This document shows, in pieces, positions 3,859 to 21,048 of a DNA stretch of 41,112 bases (position 1 is its first letter; each line of letters begins with the position of its first letter). Below the pieces are notes generated by a model that worked only from the letters and a program-made list of their open reading frames with translations, was not told the origin of the DNA and did not search any database. The stretch comes from a virus. A program made the translations under genes and the position numbers. The stretch spans positions 1 to 41,112 of the IMG/VR virus record IMGVR_UViG_3300021485_000002; one strand, 5' to 3'.

Positions 3859-3881
3859 TTTTGGGGTATACGGATTAAAGT

Positions 3882-3915
3882 GAGTATTGATTAAACTTTA
3901 TACTAATCAATACTC
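3882..3915. promoter_or_regulatory. 12-bp perfect inverted repeat, probable operator
   Basis: GAGTATTGATTA and its exact reverse complement separated by 10 bases. It lies between the transposase 3' end (3924) and the start of the leftward 226-aa gene (3858). On the - strand, TTGATT lies inside the first arm and TATAAA lies in the loop, so promoter elements may overlap it. No T run follows in the transposase direction, so an operator is preferred over a terminator. Confidence 0.5.
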
Positions 3916-3923
3916 TACATCTC

Positions 3924-5243
3924 TTATTTCTTCTTGTGTGTATTTGGATGATTTATGTGCTGTTCAAATAGAGTCCTAACCATGTCATGTCTGAACCCGT
4001 GAAAGGACATTTCAGGCTCATCAATCAAGATCATTTCGTTAGGCTCTGGACGAGGCTGGTTAAGTGAATCAATGGTGGTTTCCAGCCCGCCTTTTGTGTA
4101 AAGCAATTTAGCCCGAAGCACTTCAAAGCTGTATCCCCTACCGTTTCTGAAAGTGCCTTTTATGGAATTGTTCAGACTCTCAGTTACAGCGTTAGTGTAT
4201 GGATAATCCCACCAATTGAAGATTTCCTCATGCCAGTTATCTATCGCACGAATAGCATCACTAAAGTATTTACGGACTGTTGGAGTTGCTACACTTTTCC
4301 AGTTCTCCCAGTAGTCCTCTGCTTCCTTTCTGGTAGGCATATCCCACATACCCAAGAAGCCTTCTTTAGCGTTGTAGACTTCCATTAACTGGGGATATTC
4401 ATTAGTCCAGAATTCAAAAGAAGCCAACTCATTTAATCCCTTGATATTGTCTCTGCGTTTGAGAAGAATTTTACGGTCATTCTTGAGCTTCTTACGCTCT
4501 TTTACTGTCAACTCCGCACGAACAGCTTTGCGGGCTTTCTCCATAGCCTCACCTGCCATTTTCGCAACATGAAATCGGTCTACTACAACTACTGTATTAG
4601 GTATGAGCTGCTTAACTGCACGGTGGTATGGTCGCCACATATCAATACAAACGATCTCTATGTTCTTCCATCCACGAAGACGCATGATCGCCTTTTGAGT
4701 GGCGTCTTGAGATCTATCTTTACGCATATCGAGAAGAGTTCTCTTCTCGATATCAGTCATTACAAGGTGCATTTTCTGGCTAAAGTGCGTCTCATCGATA
4801 CCAAGAACTCGTGGTGCTTGCCAGTCATGTTTGTTTTCGATAGCAGTGACGTAGTTAGCGAACACATTTCTAATCGTCTTCTCATCAACACCAAGCTCAC
4901 TGGCTACGCTCAAAAACGGAACCTTAGCAGCACGCTTAACTATGTAGTCAACAGTGCGCTTTGGCATCCTGAAGTCTTCGTGAAGCCACTCCAAAGGTTC
5001 GAAATACGTCTTACCACAGGGCTTACACTTCAGGCGTTTTCTGGTGAAGCTGATACGGACGGTCTTAGCGTGCATCTGAGTATCAACATAACGTTGAACT
5101 CTCTTACCGATAACAACTGAGTCGGCTGAACGGCATTCAGGGCAATCACGAACAATAACTACCGACTCAGCGTGGATAACATAGCTATCCTCGTGCTCCT
5201 CCAGTTGGAGCACGGATACATTTCGTAAATTAAGCAAAATCAA
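3924..5243 (-). mobile_element. ISL3-family transposase gene, no convincing IS ends
   Basis: 439-residue DDE transposase of full family length. An N-terminal zinc-binding part has CxxC pairs at 34/37 and 73/76. It is followed by a helix-turn-helix-like region (about 110-132) and the RNase-H-like catalytic domain with D150 (GIDET), D222 (VVDRFHVAK) and E355 (NAVTESLNN). Translation appears to start at a TTG only 4 bases after the stop of the PAPS-reductase-like gene, with no ATG available. That is unusual for an IS, which normally carries its own leader. The only candidate ends are imperfect (GTGAGT..TTGATT at 3880 on + and 5251 on -), with no 8-bp target duplication. The frame is intact and the catalytic residues are present. 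Composition is poorer in GCCGG-type words than the phage backbone, which indicates acquisition. Confidence 0.88.
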
Positions 5244-5247
5244 GCAC

Positions 5248-6102
5248 TCACGCCATACAATCTAGGCAGACACCTTTATCGTGTTTTGCAAACATGTCAA
5301 GCTGACAAATTGGAATATCGGCTCTCAGTGCTTTAACCGTTTCTTTTGCGTCATACCAGAACTTAGATGGTGTTACATGCTCAGTAGGTTCGATACCTGC
5401 TTTCTTCATGTCTTCGAACAATGACTCTTTATCTTCCAAGTAGACAGGGCCAAACTCATCCTTGTGGATTGCGTAACCTATTTCATCCTCGGCAACTTTA
5501 GCATCCTCCCAAATATCAGGGCGCTCACAATAGACTATGTACCAATGTTGCCAGCCAGCTTTTAAGCAACCAATGCAATTCGCATGCTTGAATCGGTTGT
5601 AAGTCATCGGTGGGGCTATGCCTATCTCGTTTGTAACGGCGATAGTCTTTTCCTAGCTTATCATTGGAAATTCAGTTTTATAGCCGTCAAGTCCCATGAT
5701 CTGTGCACGACGTTGTGCTCGCTCACGTTCTCTGGTAGAGGCATCAAATCCGTAGATATATGTGTTCTGCTTGTCTGGGTCATTTGTCGTCAGCCAGCGC
5801 TTGAACGGTGCTGTTTTTAATCTATTGGTACAAAGTATTTGACCATTACCAACTTTCCACGCCCCAGCATCAACACAAACATCTATTGGCGTGGCGGTAT
5901 CCCACTGTTCGTGATTTGCATAAGTAATAGGCAGACCTAGATAGTCAGCGACTTCTTGTTTAAATCGCTTAATGTCAGCATCTTCCACTTTCGGAGTGAT
6001 GTCATGATTTAAGAGAATCACGTTTTCCTTGCCGTGTAATCTTACGGCTTCAATTGCACATAAGGCTGAGCTATGCCCACCTGAATAACACACTACGTAC
6101 AT
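5248..6102 (-). pseudogene. PAPS-reductase-like (PP-loop) gene interrupted by one amber codon
   Basis: Reading through a single in-frame TAG at 5653-5655 gives one 284-residue protein. The N-terminal part has the PP-loop CYSGGHSS (residues 5-12) of the adenine nucleotide alpha-hydrolase / phosphoadenosine phosphosulfate reductase family. The part after the stop carries the family's C-terminal Cys region (ANCIGCLKAG and a final CLDC). The TAG falls at codon 150, where I recall homologues having Trp (...FP..xWE.TI...IGI), so a single TGG to TAG change fits. There is no frameshift. I start at the ATG at 6102 (GAGGTG 5 bases upstream). Phage members of this family have no settled function; an ATP-dependent sulfur-transfer or nucleic-acid modification role is often assumed. 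Without suppression only the first 149 residues are made. Confidence 0.8.
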
Positions 6103-6137
6103 AAACACCTCATACTCACTATAATCCGAATTTAACA

Positions 6138-6153
6138 CTTGTGATTATACAAG
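6138..6153 (-). promoter_or_regulatory. Promoter -10 and small operator-like dyad for the PAPS-like gene
   Basis: On the - strand there is a perfect TATAAT (6143-6148) about 40 bases upstream of the ATG at 6102. It sits in the centre of the inverted repeat CTTGT-N6-ACAAG (6138-6153). No good -35 is seen at 17 bases. A repressor binding the dyad would cover the -10. Confidence 0.45.
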
Positions 6154-6198
6154 TAGGTCATTTATTCGTACACACTTAAATCCGAATACCCCATTTTT

Positions 6199-6354
6199 GT
6201 GGCGTTTTTACGGATTGGTTTTCTAAGTGTGTTCATTGCGTATTCTCCGGTGGTGGTAGGCTTGATTGCCTCGGATTTTACGGCGGTCATCGCCTTGGTT
6301 GGCTTTAACTATATGGGTAATAGTTGCCTAAGTAAAATGCAAAATGAGAAATAA
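6199..6354 (+). CDS. Small membrane protein, possibly N-terminally truncated
   Basis: 51-residue frame from a GTG, almost entirely hydrophobic (two putative membrane spans, about residues 4-22 and 24-37) with a short polar tail ending in NEK. The frame stays open upstream to a stop near 6157, with no ATG and no ribosome binding site. It looks like the 3' remainder of a longer gene whose start was lost when the PAPS-like/transposase block was acquired. It could also be chance. Its stop codon overlaps the operator at 6354-6373. Confidence 0.35.
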   Translation: MAFLRIGFLSVFIAYSPVVVGLIASDFTAVIALVGFNYMGNSCLSKMQNEK

Positions 6355-6373
6355 TTACTCACATGTGATTCAT
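6354..6373. promoter_or_regulatory. Phage operator dyad (12 of 14 positions), upstream of higBA
   Basis: Matches the recurring ATGAATC-N6-GATTCAT element: left arm ATTACTC (5/7), right arm GATTCAT (7/7). It lies 33 bases before the -35 of the higBA promoter, so the phage repressor may influence this module. Confidence 0.5.
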
Positions 6374-8608: not shown

Positions 8609-8976
8609 AGATAAACTTGATCTTTTGGCGGTTTCGATGCAAATCGACCGCCAAATCATACCGATATATTTTACGCTCAAACTTTCGCCTTTTTGAAACA
8701 AACTTACAACATCAAAAAGCGCACCTCGATCAGAACTAAACCGTCACTTTTGACGGTTTGACAATTTCAATCCGTCAGAACTGGCGAAACTTGGCCTAAA
8801 ATCACCTATTTAACATATAGCGCATAATCCGCCCTGCGATTCCTCGCCTCTTTCTTTATTTCCTCATAATGCCGTGTTAGCGGTTTTTGCCCTCATGTTT
8901 TGAATCATCAATTTTGTTTTTGGGTTTTAATTTGTGTAAAGTGAATCAAATAGTATTCATTATTTGGTTTTTCGTT
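8609..8976. other. Intergenic region with two strong hairpins
   Basis: About 370 bases without a credible gene. It holds two hairpins, 8624-8655 (TTTGGCGGT / ACCGCCAAA, with an inner CGAT/ATCG pairing) and 8738-8759 (AAACCGTCA-CTTT-TGACGGTTT, a perfect 9-bp stem). Neither has a full T run, but the first directly follows the last gene of the block and may end its transcript. An operator dyad at 8941-8960 precedes the next gene. The middle could encode a small RNA; nothing more can be supported. Confidence 0.45.
8941..8960. promoter_or_regulatory. Phage operator dyad (12 of 14 positions)
   Basis: GTGAATC-N6-TATTCAT, 16 bases before the ATG of the 8977 gene. It is the same 7-6-7 architecture as the perfect copy at 20695-20714. 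It would let the phage repressor shut the 8977-10777 operon during lysogeny. Confidence 0.65.
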
Positions 8977-9372
8977 ATGAGCATTCAAGATTTAATTCAT
9001 ATTCAAGAGACATCAAGCATTGAGAGCCCTTGCTTTGCCTATGGAATGGCAACCGGCGAGGGCTTCTTTTTTTACGATGACCGCACCAAAGAGCAAATTA
9101 CCTTTGGAATTCAGATCGGCGACGGCTCGCGTTTTGGCTATCGCGTGGACGTGAGAAGTTTATTGATTGGTCAAAAAGAGATAAGCGAAATCCAACAAGC
9201 CACAACCAAGCTTTACGAGGACGAAAAAGGCACCTCGATCACTCAGAACGTCGAAGCGCTTCGATTGGCTAAAAGTAACGTGACGTCGTCACTTCTAGCG
9301 GCTCATGCATTAAATGGAAACCGCCCAATCGGTGAGATTGTTAAGCCGGCGTTGGGTTTGTCTATTCAATAA
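8977..9372 (+). CDS. Hypothetical protein, 131 aa
   Basis: 131-residue protein starting at the ATG of MSIQDLIHI; longer upstream starts would run through the operator at 8941. A beta-rich N-terminal half (GMATGEGFFFYDDRTKEQITFGIQIGDG) precedes a helical half rich in Thr/Ala/Ser. No membrane or metal motif. First gene of a five-gene set (8977, 9392, 9596, 10054, 10358) of backbone-like composition. Family unknown. Confidence 0.65.
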   Translation: MSIQDLIHIQETSSIESPCFAYGMATGEGFFFYDDRTKEQITFGIQIGDGSRFGYRVDVRSLLIGQKEISEIQQATTKLYEDEKGTSITQNVEALRLAKSNVTSSLLAAHALNGNRPIGEIVKPALGLSIQ

Positions 9373-10365: not shown

Positions 10366-10777
10366 TAAAACTGTCGCCGATCATGTTCATGTGACGAATG
10401 AGTATGATCACGAAAGGGCGTACGATTCAGGCAAACAAAATGCGTACAATCACGCCTCTTATAGCGCGTGGTTTGCTATCCGTTTGAGCGCTCGAATTTT
10501 GCAGCTGTTGGGCTTTATTTTGGGGCTCTTGGTGGCGGCGGGATTGATTAAACACTTTGGCCGCAATGATTGGCTAGACGGTGCGGTGTTTTTCTCCGTC
10601 GTCGGCTTGTTGTCGTGGTGGCGTGTATCTGTAAACTCCGCGGAGGTGATACAGGCCACGATTAATCATGATCAGCCTTTTAAAATGCTGCTAGATAGCC
10701 GGCTTCGATTTTACTCTCACGTTTGCCGTCTTGCGCTGCTTTTAATGGGTATCTGTTTAATAACTGATGTGTTTTAG
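10358..10777 (+). CDS. Hypothetical inner-membrane protein, 139 aa
   Basis: 139-residue protein with a polar, His/Tyr-rich N-terminus (residues 1-35) and three hydrophobic segments (about 45-66, 72-88 and 117-137). Two or three membrane spans are likely. It could be a superinfection-exclusion or membrane-sensing protein, as many lysogeny-expressed small phage membrane proteins are, but the sequence alone does not show this. Last gene of its operon, closed by the terminator at 10794. Confidence 0.65.
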   Translation: MSDKTVADHVHVTNEYDHERAYDSGKQNAYNHASYSAWFAIRLSARILQLLGFILGLLVAAGLIKHFGRNDWLDGAVFFSVVGLLSWWRVSVNSAEVIQATINHDQPFKMLLDSRLRFYSHVCRLALLLMGICLITDVF

Positions 10778-11731: not shown

Positions 11732-11958
11732 TGCTTGCCCTCCTTGGGTGGGGTTGATTTGCGAAAAAGCGGCATTGTGTCGGCGCATTCTGCATTATAA
11801 AAGCGGACGGAATCCGCCGTTACTAATGTGAGACTCCGCGCTTGTGGGTGGGGTAACTTGGTTTCACTGATCGCGACGTCGTTTAGTTGTGCCGGCGGTG
11901 ATGTGGGATAAAAGCCGTTCTTTGCCATTGTCTCAATGATGTGTTTGGAGGCTTGCAT
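11728..11958 (-). CDS. Hypothetical protein, 76 aa
   Basis: 76-residue protein, middle gene of the leftward three-gene operon. It overlaps both neighbours (TAATG with the upstream gene, ATGA with the downstream one), a sign of translational coupling. Residues 1-12 form a helix; the rest is Pro/Ser/Thr-rich with a VTADSVRFYNAECAD stretch. No motif recognised. Confidence 0.6.
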   Translation of the reverse strand: MQASKHIIETMAKNGFYPTSPPAQLNDVAISETKLPHPQARSLTLVTADSVRFYNAECADTMPLFRKSTPPKEGKQ

Positions 11959-12428
11959 TAGGCGCCCCCCATTAAAGCAAATGCACTTGAAAAAGTGCGC
12001 GGTTTCTCTGTGTTTATCTCACCCTCTAGGCCGTTGAATCGGTATTGGTGGCTGTTGTTTTCGTGCTCTTTTCGCGAGAATGAATAGCCGTCTTTCTCTA
12101 AGAGTAAAATGATCTCATTGGCTCGTGTGCGCTTTATTTTGCAAGCTTTGGCGACGTCTTCGAGTGAGTAATAATTGTCTAAGTCTTTTTTGAAAAACTC
12201 TTTCACTAACTGGATTTTTGATTTGGTTTCTTTGACAGGGACTAAGTAAAAGTTAGCGCCAAGCTCTTTTTTTGTCTTTCGGATTAGATTGCCCACGGTG
12301 AGCTCGGAAGTATTAAACTTTTGGGCAATCTTCTTTTGGGTTTCTTCGGGGTGGTAACGCGCAAACTCAATGATAGCCTTGATGGTTTCGCGTGGTAAGG
12401 GTTTGTTTCTGGCCTGTTGATTGGACAT
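11958..12428 (-). CDS. Putative DNA-binding regulator with two helix-turn-helix segments, 156 aa
   Basis: 156-residue basic protein from the ATG of MSNQQARNK (GGAGCGG upstream); a longer frame to 12470 lacks a ribosome site. Residues 15-55 read as a helix-turn-helix (IIEFARYHPEETQKKIAQKF, TSELTVGNLIRKTKK). Residues 73-118 read as a winged helix (LVKEFFKKDLDNYYSLEDVAKAC, KRTRANEIILLLEKDGYSF). It is transcribed divergently from rep, with an operator dyad (12495) upstream. A role in controlling replication or the adjacent promoters is likely but inferred from position. Confidence 0.65.
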   Translation of the reverse strand: MSNQQARNKPLPRETIKAIIEFARYHPEETQKKIAQKFNTSELTVGNLIRKTKKELGANFYLVPVKETKSKIQLVKEFFKKDLDNYYSLEDVAKACKIKRTRANEIILLLEKDGYSFSRKEHENNSHQYRFNGLEGEINTEKPRTFSSAFALMGGA

Positions 12429-12494: not shown

Positions 12495-12514
12495 ATGAAT
12501 ATAATGTGATTCAT
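12495..12514. promoter_or_regulatory. Phage operator dyad (13 of 14 positions)
   Basis: ATGAATA-N6-GATTCAT, 67 bases upstream of the leftward regulator gene (start 12428) and on the rep side of it. A repressor bound here could control the leftward operon, the rep leader, or both. Confidence 0.7.
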
Positions 12515-12640: not shown

Positions 12641-12660
12641 AAATATCACATTTGATTCAA
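12641..12660. promoter_or_regulatory. Weak operator dyad (10 of 14 positions)
   Basis: AAATATC-N6-GATTCAA with the same 7-6-7 spacing as the strong sites. It sits 127 bases from 12514, in the rep leader. The match is modest, so it may be a secondary site or chance. Confidence 0.35.
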
Positions 12661-14632: not shown

Positions 14633-14652
14633 ATGATTCACAAACGATTCAA
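14633..14652. promoter_or_regulatory. Phage operator dyad before the integrase (12 of 14 positions)
   Basis: ATGATTC-N6-GATTCAA, 51 bases before the int ATG. Good match in both arms with the fixed 7-6-7 spacing; it would place int under the phage repressor. Confidence 0.65.
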
Positions 14653-14703: not shown

Positions 14704-15879
14704 ATGTCATATCTAAGAGTGAACATCTCGGAGGCGGTTTTGCAAAAGCATGTCGAGGACGAGCACATTACCGAACTGAAAGACCCGCGTTACCCGCTTC
14801 GCTTTCGCTATACACGTAACGGCGGTTCGTGGTTTTACGTTCGGGGTGGGAAGTGGAAGAAGATCGGCAACTGGCCGCTTGTTAAGTTCGCGACCGTGAT
14901 TAAAAAACTGCCTTTGATAGAAATCAATCTTGCAAGCGGCATCGATGAGGAAACCGCACACTCTGATTTCATGGAAACGGTCGGCGATGTGTTGGATTGG
15001 CATTTAGTCCGCGTCATGGATTTAGGGACGTTGTCACCAAGGCGGATTGCGACGATAAAGACGGCGGTTAATACCTACCTCAAGCCGCGCATTGGTCAAG
15101 ATTTCTTGTGTGATGTATCAAAACACTTTGTCGATGAAAAACTCATTCGTGGAATGCGTAAAGCCCGATACAGCGCCGCGACGATAAAGCTTGCTTTTGA
15201 GGTGTTCAAAAAGGCATTTTCTCGCGCGGCTGAAATGAAATTGATTGATAAAGACCCAACCGAAAGCATGAAGTTTTCAGATTTCATTGAAGAAGCCATT
15301 AAGCCGAAGCCGGCCAAGATTTCCCCGCGTGAGCTTGCGAGTGTGCTCGATACCATCATGCAAACTAAAAGTGACAACGGCCGAATGCTTGCCGCGTTTA
15401 TGGCGCTGCATGGAACCCGTATCGGTGAAACGTTGCGTTTACGTTGGGACTGGATCGACTTTGAGGCGAAAACGATCTTAATACCGGCGGAAGTGACCAA
15501 GTCCACTAGGTCGCTATTGTTGCCGCTCCCAGAGCTTACAGCGCGACTTTTGCGTGAACATAGAGCCAAGCAAGCGAAAAGAGGCTATCGCGGCGTGTAC
15601 GTGTTTGTAGGGCGTTTTAATAGGCCAATTGATGACAACAAAGCAAGTAAGCTAATTCGTCAGGTCAGCGGCCGAGCGTGGACGTCTCACGATTTGCGGA
15701 AAGCCTTTCGCGGCCTGTTGGGGGTGTTAGGGGTGGAATACCTCACGGCGGAAAGGTTAGTTAACCATTCGTTAACAACCCTCGAAAAAACCTACGACCA
15801 AGAGATAGACTTAATTCGAAAAGCAGACGCGACCAACAAGGCGCACAACTGGATTTTAGAGCGTGTTAGCCACTTTTAG
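14704..15879 (+). CDS. int: Tyrosine recombinase / phage integrase
   Basis: 391-residue site-specific recombinase. An N-terminal basic beta-rich domain (about 1-70, arm-type DNA binding) is followed by a SAM-like core-binding domain (about 85-190). The catalytic domain has the full set: R239 (HGTRIGE), K266, H329 and R332 (SHDLRK), H355 (VNHS) and the nucleophile Y364 (KTYDQ). It should integrate the phage into, and excise it from, a chromosomal att site, or resolve multimers of the circular form. No tRNA fragment or obvious attP core is visible nearby, and no excisionase is recognised. The presence of rep and par on the same molecule makes its role a real question. Confidence 0.92.
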   Translation: MSYLRVNISEAVLQKHVEDEHITELKDPRYPLRFRYTRNGGSWFYVRGGKWKKIGNWPLVKFATVIKKLPLIEINLASGIDEETAHSDFMETVGDVLDWHLVRVMDLGTLSPRRIATIKTAVNTYLKPRIGQDFLCDVSKHFVDEKLIRGMRKARYSAATIKLAFEVFKKAFSRAAEMKLIDKDPTESMKFSDFIEEAIKPKPAKISPRELASVLDTIMQTKSDNGRMLAAFMALHGTRIGETLRLRWDWIDFEAKTILIPAEVTKSTRSLLLPLPELTARLLREHRAKQAKRGYRGVYVFVGRFNRPIDDNKASKLIRQVSGRAWTSHDLRKAFRGLLGVLGVEYLTAERLVNHSLTTLEKTYDQEIDLIRKADATNKAHNWILERVSHF

Positions 15880-16481
15880 GCAAGAGACAAGCTTGAGATC
15901 GTCCGGTGATCTTCTGATAGGACGGAACCCGACGCAATAAGGTGACGTGACACAAGTCGGGTATTTAAGATAGAAGACTATAATAAACTTGAAAAATGAA
16001 TCGAAAGGTATTCAAATTGTCTCCGAGGTAAAAACGACGCAAAGCCCATAGTGCCGTGTGGCAAATTAAATCAACGTGTTGGTTTTGAAATAGTGCAAGC
16101 CTTGCGCCGTCTAGCCTCCCTCTCTGATAAGTGACTTTAAAATTGCCATTGCTACGACCAAAAGCCCCGTTGATACGGGGCTTTTTTATTGGTTTTTGCT
16201 TAAGGTACTTCTGGGGCTTTTGAAGCTTGTCGGTGGGGCAAAGCCTCCGAGTTTGGATACGAGCAAAATTTACTATGCGCGACACCATCGGATCGATTAA
16301 CTGGCTGATCTTTCTAAAAACTGACCTTTGCGCCGTGTTCAATTTTTGTCGGGGATTTTGAACAGCCGCCATAATTCGCGCTATGTCATAAAAGGGCGGT
16401 TTCCGACCGCTTAAAAGTTGCATATCTGATTCATTTGTTATAGTTTTTGTGCAAAAGCCACCACAGCCGGAGATTTAACAA
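15880..16481. other. Intergenic region downstream of int, candidate attP or structured RNA
   Basis: About 600 bases with no credible gene. The first part is rich in pairing: GTCC/GGAC (15901-15922) around a smaller dyad, and ACCCGAC/GTCGGGT (15927-15962). It is followed by a strong bidirectional terminator at 16161-16187 and then, at 16428, a GATTCAT half-site of the phage operator before the next gene. DNA directly 3' of int is a usual place for attP. A leftward frame (16423-15965) crosses the terminator and is not believable. Confidence 0.4.
16161..16187. terminator. Strong bidirectional terminator
   Basis: AAAGCCCCGT-TGAT-ACGGGGCTTT, a perfect 10-bp stem with six T after it and A before it. 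It isolates the integrase region from the 16482 operon. Confidence 0.88.
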
Positions 16482-17102
16482 ATGAGTGACAAAAATTATC
16501 TTGAGCTCAAAGAAGGGTTGCAGAAATCGACCTTTCAGGACATGAATACCAAGTCAATCGCGGACTTGCTCAACTATTCAGAGACGCAAATCAAGAAAGC
16601 CAATCGTGAAGCCAAAGCGGGAAATTGGGACATGCCTGGTCGGTTTGATAGGGCGGTGTTGTTTGCGTTAATGCTTGGTCGTCAAAATGGCTTTGAGTCG
16701 CTTCATGAGTTCATCCCCAAGTTTTCAAAGGGCAGTGCGAATATAAAGTACACGGCCGAAGAGCAAGCCGTCATTGATGCGCAAATGGACTTGGTCGAGG
16801 TCATCGATAGTGCCGAGGGTGGGGCGGAAAACGCCGACCAAAAAACACAAAGTAAGGCGAAAGAGGCCAAGCCAAAGAAAAAGAGAAAGGCGAAAACCGC
16901 CGACCAAAAACAAGAAAAGCCGCCTGAGATTGAAATTGATGGTTTATGTTATCCTGCGACAACGGAGCCCGAATTGTTGGAGAGTATCCGAACTCTTAAG
17001 CCTGAACGTGAGTTGCTAGAGTACGCCCTCGGTTTTAAAGACAGTTCGCCGCTTGCTATGACTCGATTATTGAAAACGGCTATTGACGAGGCGTCACAGT
17101 GA
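16482..17102 (+). CDS. Hypothetical protein with basic linker, 206 aa
   Basis: 206-residue protein. Residues 1-90 are helical and contain a helix-turn-helix-like stretch (SIADLLNYSETQIKKANREAK). Residues 125-150 are a Lys-rich linker (KAKEAKPKKKRKAK). The C-terminal 45 residues form another helical unit (LESIRTLKPERELLEYALGF). DNA binding is likely. It overlaps the next gene by 4 bases and precedes parAB, so it may serve maintenance or copy control. Family not recognised. Confidence 0.6.
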   Translation: MSDKNYLELKEGLQKSTFQDMNTKSIADLLNYSETQIKKANREAKAGNWDMPGRFDRAVLFALMLGRQNGFESLHEFIPKFSKGSANIKYTAEEQAVIDAQMDLVEVIDSAEGGAENADQKTQSKAKEAKPKKKRKAKTADQKQEKPPEIEIDGLCYPATTEPELLESIRTLKPERELLEYALGFKDSSPLAMTRLLKTAIDEASQ

Positions 17103-17462: not shown

Positions 17463-18056
17463 ATGGCGATTTATGTAGTAGCAAACAATAAAGGCGGCTC
17501 CAAGAAAACGGCGACCGCTATCAACTTGATCCCGCACTTAGCTTTGGACTTTGTCGCGGATTTGGATAAGTACCACGCGCTTAAAAAAATCTTGGAGCAT
17601 GGCGAGAACCCTATCGAGGTTCGTATTCCCAAGACGCGCCAAGAGATTTTAGATTGGGCGGATGAAGATAAGAATATTCTGATTGATTGCGGCGGCTTTG
17701 ATTCGGATTTCACCCAAGCGGCGATCAGTCAGGCCGATGTGGTCATTACGCCATCAAACGACGACCCAACCGAACAGTTAGGATTAAGCGATTTTAATCA
17801 GACCATGGCGAACGTGTCGAAAATGGTCGGTGAGAAGCTTGTTGCGAAAGTGGTGATTTCTGGGGTGCATCATTCACGCAGTGATTTTTCGATGATGAAA
17901 GAGTTTATTGGTGGATTGTCCCATTTGGAGCTTTTGCCGGTTGTTATCCCTCATTCAAGCAAAATTCCCGCGGCTCAGTTTGAGGGCAAGCCGGTTATGT
18001 CGGGAACCATTGCCGCCAAGTTCCACCTTTTAGCAAAAAGTATAAAAGTAGATTAA
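17463..18056 (+). CDS. parA: ParA-family partition ATPase (short, type Ib-like)
   Basis: 197-residue MinD/ParA ATPase without an N-terminal helix-turn-helix, so it resembles the short type Ib plasmid ParA proteins. The deviant Walker A is KGGSKKT (residues 10-16): both the signature Lys and the P-loop Lys are present, but the usual Gly between them is replaced by Lys. The Walker B-like strand is ILIDCGG, and the DVVITPSNDDP loop is typical. It should form a nucleoid-bound gradient that separates copies of the circular phage DNA at division. It pairs with the small gene at 18139, with repeats on either side. Confidence 0.88.
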   Translation: MAIYVVANNKGGSKKTATAINLIPHLALDFVADLDKYHALKKILEHGENPIEVRIPKTRQEILDWADEDKNILIDCGGFDSDFTQAAISQADVVITPSNDDPTEQLGLSDFNQTMANVSKMVGEKLVAKVVISGVHHSRSDFSMMKEFIGGLSHLELLPVVIPHSSKIPAAQFEGKPVMSGTIAAKFHLLAKSIKVD

Positions 18057-18762: not shown

Positions 18763-19323
18763 TTACATTGACCATGTCGCGCCGACCACTCGGCCAACAA
18801 TGCGCGGCTCGTCGATAATGTCGAATTGTTCGTTGTCGGGAATGGCTAAGCCCGTCACGTAACGACGAAAATAATATTGGTTTTTCTTCATAACGATCAC
18901 CAAATCGCCATCACTGGCGACGGTGGCCGGCTCTACGATTAAATGACTGCCGATAGGAAAACACGCCATATCGCTATTCATGGCGGTGTCTTTGACCTCT
19001 AACGCGTAAGCGTGTTCTTTCGCGCCCTTGGTGTAACTAATGAACTTGGTCGGTTTGCGTCGCTTGTAGCGTAGATCGCTAAATTCATAGACGGGTAGGT
19101 AAGTATTGGGTTTGTCTTTGGGTGCGCAGTATGCCGCGTAAAACTCGCCAATGGTCACGCCCATTTTATTTAGGCACTTGAACATTTTGTACGCGCTGAT
19201 TTCCGTCGTGCCGTTTTCAAAACGGTTTAAGGTTGGACGGGAAACAATGCCCTCAAAATCTGACTGATTAAATCCGTGTAATTTGCGCATCTTGGCGAAC
19301 GGTGCGCCTAAATTCTTAATCAT
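18763..19323 (-). CDS. cI: CI/C2-like phage repressor with degenerate S24 peptidase domain
   Basis: 186-residue XRE/S24 protein, probably the master lysogeny repressor. Residues 8-56 form the helix-turn-helix (FAKMRKLHGFNQSDFEGIVS, RPTLNRFENG). Residues 75-186 follow the LexA/CI peptidase fold, with VKDTAMNSDMACFPIGSHLIVEP where family members have V-x-G-[DN]-S-M and a later G-D-x-[LV]. The nucleophile Ser appears replaced by Ala114, and the catalytic Lys in the xxFKR strand by Arg (FRR, 152-154). It should still dimerise and bind DNA but probably cannot cleave itself. It is divergent from the 19539 gene; the dispersed ATGAATC-N6-GATTCAT sites are its likely targets. Confidence 0.8.
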   Translation of the reverse strand: MIKNLGAPFAKMRKLHGFNQSDFEGIVSRPTLNRFENGTTEISAYKMFKCLNKMGVTIGEFYAAYCAPKDKPNTYLPVYEFSDLRYKRRKPTKFISYTKGAKEHAYALEVKDTAMNSDMACFPIGSHLIVEPATVASDGDLVIVMKKNQYYFRRYVTGLAIPDNEQFDIIDEPRIVGRVVGATWSM

Positions 19324-19538
19324 ATTTGCCTCATCTCAGAAAGGTTTTTCAATTTTTCTTTTAATATGATTCATTATCGACTATTTCGAGGTGTTTTTTA
19401 CATGTCACGAATGAGACGGGTGTTAAATGTGACATAAACGATTCATTTAAAATAAATTACTAGAATATGTATCGTATAAGATGCAAATAACCCTTAATAT
19501 AACAATCAATATTCAGTTGGACGTAATAGGCTTAAACT
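19324..19538. promoter_or_regulatory. Divergent switch region between repressor and early regulator
   Basis: 215 bases between divergent genes. It carries one operator dyad (19427-19446: ATGTGAC-N6-GATTCAT, 11/14) and a further GATTCAT half-site (19368-19374). TATAAG at 19475 is a possible rightward -10. This is where the lytic/lysogenic switch promoters are expected. Confidence 0.55.
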
Positions 19539-20096
19539 ATGAGAGAAGACGAAATTATCATTCGTGTGACGCGTGATTTCCTTGAGAATAGCCGCTATTC
19601 ACAAGCGGATTTTGCCGTTGATATGCTCGCCAAAGAGCTAGAGCTTGTCGAGCCCAAAGAGAGCGCCGAGAGCTACACCAAGTATAAAGGCCGCGTAAAG
19701 AAAAACGTCAGTCGCATTATGACCGGCTCGCAGCCTTTCCCCGCCAAATGGATCGATTCATGGGTTGCGGCACTGCCGGAGCAGTACGCCAAACAATGCC
19801 GTGAACTGATCGCCTCAAAAAATGGTTACATGGATTCGATGCCAGATTTAGCCGGCGCGGATAGCACCAAGGCGGAAACCGCCCTGATGATGAACTTGTT
19901 TGCGGATGTGGTCGCGACGAACTCCGCGGCGCACGATGGCGTTTACGATGAAAACGACGACGTGGCCGAGGCGAACGAGAATATCGACGCCAAAATGCGC
20001 TTGGTGATGGAGCTCATTAAGGACGTGCGCCGCATTCATGCCGGCACCGGTGCGACGGGTAAGATCTTTGATGTTAGCGGCCTGATCAAGCTGTAA
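19539..20096 (+). CDS. Putative early transcription regulator (Cro/CII position), 185 aa
   Basis: 185-residue protein, first gene divergent from the repressor. Residues 12-75 contain a helical DNA-binding-like region (YSQADFAVDMLAKELEL; GRVKKNVSRIMTGSQPFPAKWIDSW). The pattern of an N-terminal helix-turn-helix followed by the FPAKW...ALPE segment resembles phage regulatory proteins, though I cannot name the family with certainty. The C-terminal half is acidic, with a DENDDVAEANENID linker and a final helix. Position argues for a Cro- or CII-like role. It is followed by the Q-like gene after 9 bases. Confidence 0.5.
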   Translation: MREDEIIIRVTRDFLENSRYSQADFAVDMLAKELELVEPKESAESYTKYKGRVKKNVSRIMTGSQPFPAKWIDSWVAALPEQYAKQCRELIASKNGYMDSMPDLAGADSTKAETALMMNLFADVVATNSAAHDGVYDENDDVAEANENIDAKMRLVMELIKDVRRIHAGTGATGKIFDVSGLIKL

Positions 20097-20105
20097 GGGG
20101 GCGCG

Positions 20106-20681
20106 ATGGATATCGAAGAGATAAGGGAAAGCATGCGCGCGCGCTTACTCGCCGCGTTTGCGGACTATCACCGGCAAACGAACGGCGCTTATTCGGCGGT
20201 CGGGGTGGTCAACACTAACGGATACAAAGCCGTTGCGGCGGCCATGAAAGGCAAGGAAACCCGAGCAAAAGGAAGCTCAAAAATCCTTTGCTCGGATGAT
20301 GTTTTTGAACACAATCGCCTATTACGTCGTGTAAATGATTTGCCGATATTGTTGAAGTTTTGGGTATTGTATCGTTACACGGAGCAGTTCAGCCCCCGAA
20401 TCAAGGCCGAATTGATCGAGATTGGCCTCGGCGAGTGCGGTTTGCTTTCCGGTCAAATGCGGGTGGTGACTAAGTTGGAGAAAATCGGCGACCGGTTGAT
20501 CATGAACCGCCGAGAGTTTGCCAGTTTGTCGGCGTCCGACTTGGCAAAAGTTGCCGGTGTTCACCCTTCCGTCTATGCGAGAACGTACCAAGAAAAGGCC
20601 GACATGTTCACCGAGTATTTTGACGAGCTTGATAATCAGGCGCTTGATATTTTATTGACCCCTGAAACCCTTATGGCATAA
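20106..20681 (+). CDS. Putative late-gene regulator, Q-antiterminator-like by position
   Basis: 191-residue basic protein with GGGGGCG before its ATG. The centre (LLRRVNDLPILLKFWVLYRYTEQFSP) resembles the region shared by Q-type antiterminators and related phage late regulators. Residues 143-165 form a helix-turn-helix (LSASDLAKVAGVHPSVYARTY). It ends just before a promoter-like region and two tandem terminators that precede the late genes, the textbook position of Q. A Q protein would bind the late promoter DNA and let RNA polymerase read through. The sequence evidence alone is weak. Confidence 0.5.
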   Translation: MDIEEIRESMRARLLAAFADYHRQTNGAYSAVGVVNTNGYKAVAAAMKGKETRAKGSSKILCSDDVFEHNRLLRRVNDLPILLKFWVLYRYTEQFSPRIKAELIEIGLGECGLLSGQMRVVTKLEKIGDRLIMNRREFASLSASDLAKVAGVHPSVYARTYQEKADMFTEYFDELDNQALDILLTPETLMA

Positions 20682-20694
20682 CTAATGCTGATGA

Positions 20695-20714
20695 ATGAAT
20701 CAAAAAGGATTCAT
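20695..20714. promoter_or_regulatory. Perfect phage operator dyad at the late promoter
   Basis: ATGAATC-AAAAAG-GATTCAT, a perfect 7-bp inverted repeat with a 6-base spacer and the best copy of the dispersed operator (14/14). It lies 9 bases upstream of a -35-like TTTACA (20723-20728), with GATAGT as a possible -10 (20745-20750). Confidence 0.75.
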
Positions 20715-20722
20715 ATTAAGTC

Positions 20723-20750
20723 TTTACAAAATGCAAAGCATAGTGATAGT
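20723..20750 (+). promoter_or_regulatory. Probable late promoter (pR'-like)
   Basis: TTTACA and GATAGT with a 16-base spacer, directly after the Q-like gene and before two terminators. The hexamers are only fair matches. The call leans on context: nothing else would explain tandem terminators placed here without a gene before them. Confidence 0.45.
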
Positions 20751-20784
20751 TTTTCCTACCGTGGGACAAGCACCGCATACAAAG

Positions 20785-20807
20785 CCACCTCTTGAGGTGG
20801 TTTTTTT
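20785..20807 (+). terminator. First late-leader terminator (tR'-like)
   Basis: CCACCT-CTTG-AGGTGG followed by seven T. It is about 35 bases downstream of the presumed late promoter. Confidence 0.85.
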
Positions 20808-20843
20808 ATGCCTGTTTGCTGCTCAGCTCAGAAAGACCATTTT

Positions 20844-20874
20844 GCCCTCTCCCCCCTTGGTTGAGGGCTTTTTT
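20844..20874 (+). terminator. Second late-leader terminator
   Basis: GCCCTC, a 13-base loop, GAGGGC and six T, 37 bases after the first terminator. Two terminators in a row before the late operon imply tight control by antitermination. Confidence 0.8.
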
Positions 20875-20877
20875 ATT

Positions 20878-21048
20878 TTGGAAATCGACGCGCACGACAC
20901 CGGATTAACGCTTTGCGATCTCGCCGCGTTTACCGCCTTTGATAACGATCAACTTGCGTCGGTTTCCGACCCCTTAAGCGTTGCCGGTTCGAGGTTATTG
21001 GCAAGCGCCGCCCGAAGAGAAAGAGAACCCAACACCGGCAACGTTTAA
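20878..21048 (+). CDS. Possible small first gene of the late operon, 56 aa
   Basis: Open frame with coding-like composition (MEIDAHDTGLTLCDLAAFTAF...) between the second terminator and the terminase small-subunit gene. The only plausible start is TTG at 20878, without a good ribosome site. A longer version would run back through both terminators and is rejected. It could be a short helical protein or just cos/leader DNA that happens to be open. Confidence 0.25.
   Translation: MEIDAHDTGLTLCDLAAFTAFDNDQLASVSDPLSVAGSRLLASAARREREPNTGNV

Follow-up and report, generated by a model that had tools for sequence, protein, structure and literature searches.

The window, the whole stretch of 41,112 nt that was analyzed, carries a direct terminal repeat of 127 bp and, on its plus strand, a tyrosine recombinase gene (integrase or resolvase by family matches, 14704-15879), a conserved gene of unassigned function (16482-17102), and a ParA-like partition gene recognized by family matches (17463-18056). 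A cI gene on the minus strand (18763-19323), encoding a CI-like repressor, is followed by genes for a CII-like regulator (19539-20096, plus strand, phrog_4834) and a Q-like antiterminator (20106-20681, plus strand, phrog_304), and then by the late genes. Virion genes stand in the same general order as in VP882, judging by a terminase match and the gene layout. The direct terminal repeat, the ParA-like gene, and relatives that are circular plasmids would fit a plasmid prophage, and the window appears to be a circular, phage-plasmid-type genome of a virus of Vibrio type that lives as a plasmid. The relatives compared were four other virus contigs, G001 to G004, whose CI proteins are 40-53% identical to that of the window, and four circular Vibrio plasmids with CI about 35% identical. 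Sequence L005 matches the window at 99.99% identity over its 10.4 kb and is not independent evidence. A near-identity search with positions 18000-41112 found no phage record, and no relative came out of genome-collection scans in which the repressor or the terminase served as query.

A 20-bp dyad with two-fold symmetry and 7-6-7 geometry, ATGAATC-N6-GATTCAT, recurs across the window. The earlier note had listed matches at 20695 (14 of 14 letters), 12495 (13), 8941, 14633 and 6354 (12 each), 19427 (11) and 12641 (10), together with half-sites GATTCAT at 16428 and 19368, and every one of these coordinates and scores is correct; sites at 15996 (12), 19467 (11) and 5588 (11) are additional. Intergenic DNA makes up about 15.5% of the window, yet all six matches at 12/14 or better (6354, 8941, 12495, 14633, 15996 and 20695) are intergenic, with none in coding sequence. 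At 11/14 or better the count is eight intergenic to one coding; the match at 5588 lies within a gene of a transposon block and is probably chance. The note had suggested scanning for enrichment in intergenic DNA, and strong dyads do concentrate there rather than occurring equally in coding sequence. Its statement that the dyad occurs only between genes holds for these strong sites, but at 10/14 there are 22 matches in coding sequence and 15 in intergenic DNA.

Permuted half-sites gave a mean of 0.05 matches (maximum 3) at 12/14 or better and 0.51 (maximum 5) at 11/14 or better, and none of 400 permutations equaled the observed counts. When the spacer was varied from 0 to 14, N6 returned eight intergenic matches and every other length returned zero to four. 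Dinucleotide shuffling of the whole window predicts 2.5 matches at 11/14 or better, against nine observed. A single phage genome thus holds the same site repeatedly between its genes, more often than chance would give. Two of the strong sites, 20695 and 15996, fall in mechanical open reading frames (20695-21048, plus strand; 15965-16423, minus strand) and would shift to coding if both frames were counted as genes; we treated the former as a non-gene because terminator-like hairpins lie inside it and the latter because it has no family match. An unbiased palindrome search of whole genomes was drowned by codon-related and AT-rich repeats. The strong dyad set is real, and the matches at 10/14 are mostly noise. 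Because background dominates at that score, the sites at 12641-12660 and 16415-16434 need other support; the relatives back the latter and not the former, and 12641 is doubtful.

The perfect copy, at 20695-20714, lies between the Q-like gene and a late promoter at 20723-20752 (plus strand) that we place by comparison across relatives, with a -35 of TTTACA (20723-20728) and a predicted -10 of either GATAGT (20745-20750, N16) or TAGTTT (20747-20752, N18). Two terminator-like hairpins follow in the late leader (20785-20867, plus strand; stems 20785-20800 and 20854-20867), and the scan that shows them also lists TTTACA-N16-GATAGT. The site has counterparts in G001 to G004 and in the plasmid relatives, and in each of the late promoters compared, 4-8 bp separate the dyad from the -35 that follows it, promoter positions here and below being judged by eye. 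This is an unusual position, and one where an activator could also sit. Lambda is not known to have a CI operator at its Q-dependent late promoter. The gap between cI and the CII-like gene contains two sites of 11/14, at 19427-19446 and 19467-19486, and a possible weak site of 9/14 at 19355-19374, which includes the half-site at 19368 and is not significant alone. The two 11/14 sites are 40 bp apart; similar pairs, 40-42 bp apart, occur in G002 (2893/2934), G001 (8460/8501) and plasmid L025 (26177/26219), a spacing that may reflect cooperative dimers. Both the late promoter and the switch region had been named as targets, and recurrence of both sites in the relatives supports that view.

Flanking the recombinase gene are two sites of 12/14. 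The one directly preceding it, at 14633-14652, supports the proposal that the recombinase is a target, with a counterpart among the relatives only in G003 (L023:971). Whether this amounts to control of integration functions, as had been claimed, is uncertain because a tyrosine recombinase of this kind is also present in the related elements, which are circular plasmids; instead of integrating, the enzyme may serve to resolve plasmid dimers. The other, at 15996-16015, starts 117 bp after the gene and just downstream of a TATAAT-like -10 (15979-15984), and all relatives have a site of their own in this gap. Farther along, the weak dyad at 16415-16434 (10/14, with one perfect half-site at 16428) overlaps the -35 and spacer before the 16482 gene, the first gene after the post-recombinase sites. 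The same overlap is seen by eye in G001, G002 and G004. The 16482 gene is conserved by synteny, and family searches with its product gave no confident match.

This region has further features. The TATAAT-like -10 and a terminator-like hairpin (16160-16185) flank a possible transcript of about 200 nt within 15979-16190, with the dyad at its start, and the -10 stretch aligns in G001 to G004. Lying between the recombinase gene and the 16482 gene, such a transcript could possibly be a small RNA or encode a small protein; an Rfam search returned nothing at gathering thresholds. Non-coding positions 16159-16277 are 77% identical to G002, the sequence AAGGTACT is common to five genomes, and this stretch might be a recombination site. 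Hairpins of the type GGTCGG-N3-CCGACC are repeated at 10777 and 16396-16410, with similar ones in G001 and G002.

The remaining strong sites lie at 12495-12514 (13/14) before a regulator-like gene on the minus strand (11958-12428), at 8941-8960 (12/14) before an accessory operon that starts at 8977, and at 6354-6373 (12/14) about 100 bp before higB, identified by Pfam. The last two are real by sequence and were seen in this genome only. Control of HigBA by the dyad regulator is doubtful because some 80 bp lie between the 6354 site and the apparent higBA promoter downstream of it, and this target is not supported in the form proposed. Control of parA is likewise doubtful, and in the window no dyad was found directly upstream of that gene.

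Dyads in the relatives keep the 7-6-7 form, but their letters differ (AAGTTAA, ATTGATC, AAGAGAC and AAAGCTC), and they occupy matching places: the late promoter after the Q-like gene, the gap between cI and the CII-like gene, and the gap between the recombinase and the conserved gene. The late site reads AAGTTAA-N6-TTAACTT in G001 and G004, AAGAGAC-N6-GTCTCTT in G003, ATTGAAC-N6-GATCAAT in G002, and TAACTC-N6-GAGCTT or GAGCCT in the plasmids. Searched with its own spelling at 11/14 or better, the window has eight intergenic matches, G001 seven, G002 six, G003 nine, two plasmids three each, and G004 two, this last genome being a 10-kb fragment whose own count is not significant alone (reached by 11 of 104 permutations). 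Off the diagonal of the genome-by-spelling table, foreign spellings give zero to two. In seven genomes we then considered the two gaps away from the late promoter: the one separating the recombinase from the 16482-type gene (or its equivalent) and the one separating cI from the CII-like gene. A site in the genome's own spelling is present in 13 of these 14 gaps, which were picked after initial scans had shown sites there, and in 10 of 11 when we set aside three cells, those of G002 and the two plasmids, for which the spelling was fixed after viewing the cI-gap site; the two plasmids are closely related and not independent. The cI gap of G004 has no own-spelling site at 11/14 or better. Permuted half-sites fill a mean of 0.37 of the 14 gaps (maximum 3 in 1000 trials), and foreign spellings fill 3 of 56.

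Recurrence at the same places with a genome-specific spelling effectively excludes both chance and a shared host regulator, and points to a phage-encoded protein whose specificity diverges with the phage; the reader of the dyads has to be one that changes specificity between relatives. Chance matching in AT-rich intergenic DNA could account for much at 10/14, where many matches are in coding sequence, but for the strong sites it is refuted by the permutation, spacer and cross-genome tests, and we give it a negligible probability. A host regulator such as ArgR, CRP or LexA is very improbable as well: the ATGAAT/ATTCAT arms resemble an ARG box, but they stand 8 bp apart rather than 4, and the relatives, including four Vibrio plasmids, differ in spelling at the same places, for which a conserved host protein would not account. 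Somewhat less remote, though still unlikely, is the idea that the dyads form RNA hairpins (terminators) or block transcription in the manner of stoperators, rather than serving as promoter operators. In G001, G003 and G004 the perfect dyads directly behind Q are followed by T-runs and do look hairpin-like; the late copy of the window has no T-run, and other copies have imperfect arms and precede genes, where the sequence is promoter-like. At the late site alone, the dyad may still act as a roadblock.

Which phage protein reads the sites is a choice mainly between the products of two adjacent genes. The CI-like repressor (18763-19323), whose gene adjoins the sites at 19427 and 19467, has HTH_3 and S24-like domains, that is, a Cro/CI-type helix-turn-helix and a lambda-like C-terminal domain, and its model resembles the lambda and 186 repressors. 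Its recognition helix differs between genomes in the alignment. It is the most likely binder, and the dyads are probably the operator set of this one phage-encoded regulator. The CII-like protein (19539-20096) is a distinctly less probable reader, either alone or sharing the sites with CI as Cro and CI share lambda operators, and it may activate the late promoter. Its N-terminal domain model bears a weak likeness to Cro/CI-type helix-turn-helix proteins (C.Esp1396I, Z 6.3), as does the complete model to phage 186 CII (Z 5.2), but Z values of 5 to 6 are weak for a helical model, and Foldseek found no match at E of 0.001 or below. Between the window and G002, whose dyads agree in five of seven half-site letters, the CII-like recognition stretches are close (KNVSRIMTG and QNVSRIMTG), closer than those of CI, where the recognition helices are very different. 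The window shows no separate cro gene; in PY54 and similar plasmids, which do carry cro, a CII-like gene is present in addition to it. The position of the dyad upstream of the -35 at every late promoter compared would also suit an activator, but the same dyad overlaps the -35 and spacer at 16482-type promoters and follows the -10 after the recombinase, so the position is not that of a fixed activator; such variable placement would fit a repressor better. The relatives cannot separate the two proteins because the genes are adjacent and diverge together, and VP882, PY54, and other phages and plasmids with a CII-like gene and a different CI did not settle the choice. The earlier claim of one repressor acting at scattered sites thus stands as to a single phage-encoded regulator, which the relatives strongly support, while the CII-like protein may yet be the binder and silencing is the presumed outcome.

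Taking CI as the binder, with repression upon binding and cooperativity at the spacing of about 40 bp, all of which we infer from sequence, each 7-6-7 site would be occupied by a CI dimer. While the phage is a prophage, CI would shut off the CII-like/Q operon at its promoter and dampen the late promoter, and it would also restrain transcripts near the recombinase and the 16482 gene as well as those of some accessory genes; all these targets would be released jointly once the repressor is lost. Repression at the late promoter, where the dyad is upstream of the -35, might work by denying RNA polymerase its upstream contacts or by blocking Q read-through. Relative to lambda CI, the catalytic serine of the S24 domain is alanine in the window (DTAM) and the lysine is arginine in the whole group, all five relatives aligned included, so the window repressor lacks both catalytic residues of the self-cleaving LexA/lambda CI type. 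Self-cleavage on DNA damage is not expected because of these replacements, and induction may need an antirepressor instead. A more tentative and rather improbable reading has CI and the CII-like protein contending for the same scattered dyads. The site upstream of the Q-dependent late promoter would then be repressed in the prophage and switched on during lytic growth, and the spelling of the entire operator set would change with the phage, so that each had an immunity type of its own.

Scattered repressor sites are of a known kind. P1 C1, a plasmid-prophage repressor, has 22 dispersed operators and controls replication and late genes among its targets (PMC8546580). The likeness is one of site layout, a single plasmid-prophage repressor with many scattered sites; P1 sites are 17 bp and asymmetric whereas those of the window are 20 bp and two-fold symmetric. 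The CB repressor of N15 and phiKO2 binds five symmetric operators of 16-18 bp (OR1-3, OL1-2) in the cB-cro gap and before repA, and lacks self-cleavage residues (PMC4997575). It thus resembles the window CI in those residues and in having symmetric operators next to the repressor gene; N15 and phiKO2 differ in having a linear telomere prophage and a separate cro, with no late-promoter or recombinase site described. Stoperators of the mycobacteriophage L5 type are also numerous in each genome, with a motif that drifts with the repressor between relatives, but they have an asymmetric 13-bp core in one orientation and stop transcription along the genome (PMC6550527), whereas the window sites are symmetric and, at 12/14 or better, intergenic. 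VP882 has virion genes similar to those of the window and likewise carries a CII-like and a Q-like gene. It differs in its protelomerase, its only distantly matching CI, and a single perfect dyad copy with no excess of near-copies: TGTTC-AAAA-GAACA, at 36378-36397 of L008, which immediately precedes a promoter-like TTGACA ahead of the lysis genes.

What appears to be new is the occurrence in this Vibrio group, a 7-6-7 dyad whose form stays constant while its letters vary over five spellings, and the recurrent site at the Q-dependent late promoter; a search of open-access literature, which takes in few subscription journals, gave no paper describing such dyads. The set gives this phage-plasmid group a testable, genome-wide map of its switch from sequence alone, late-promoter dyad included, and at least five spellings of one layout provide a natural set for following how repressor and operator specificity change together and for predicting immunity groups. 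Two minor observations concern genome structure. Circular Vibrio plasmids L026 and L032 are annotated with duplicated virion-gene blocks, which represent either true duplication or assembly error. In the window, the ISL3 transposase block at 3864-6195 is 95% identical to a Vibrio anguillarum plasmid, a sign of recent insertion.
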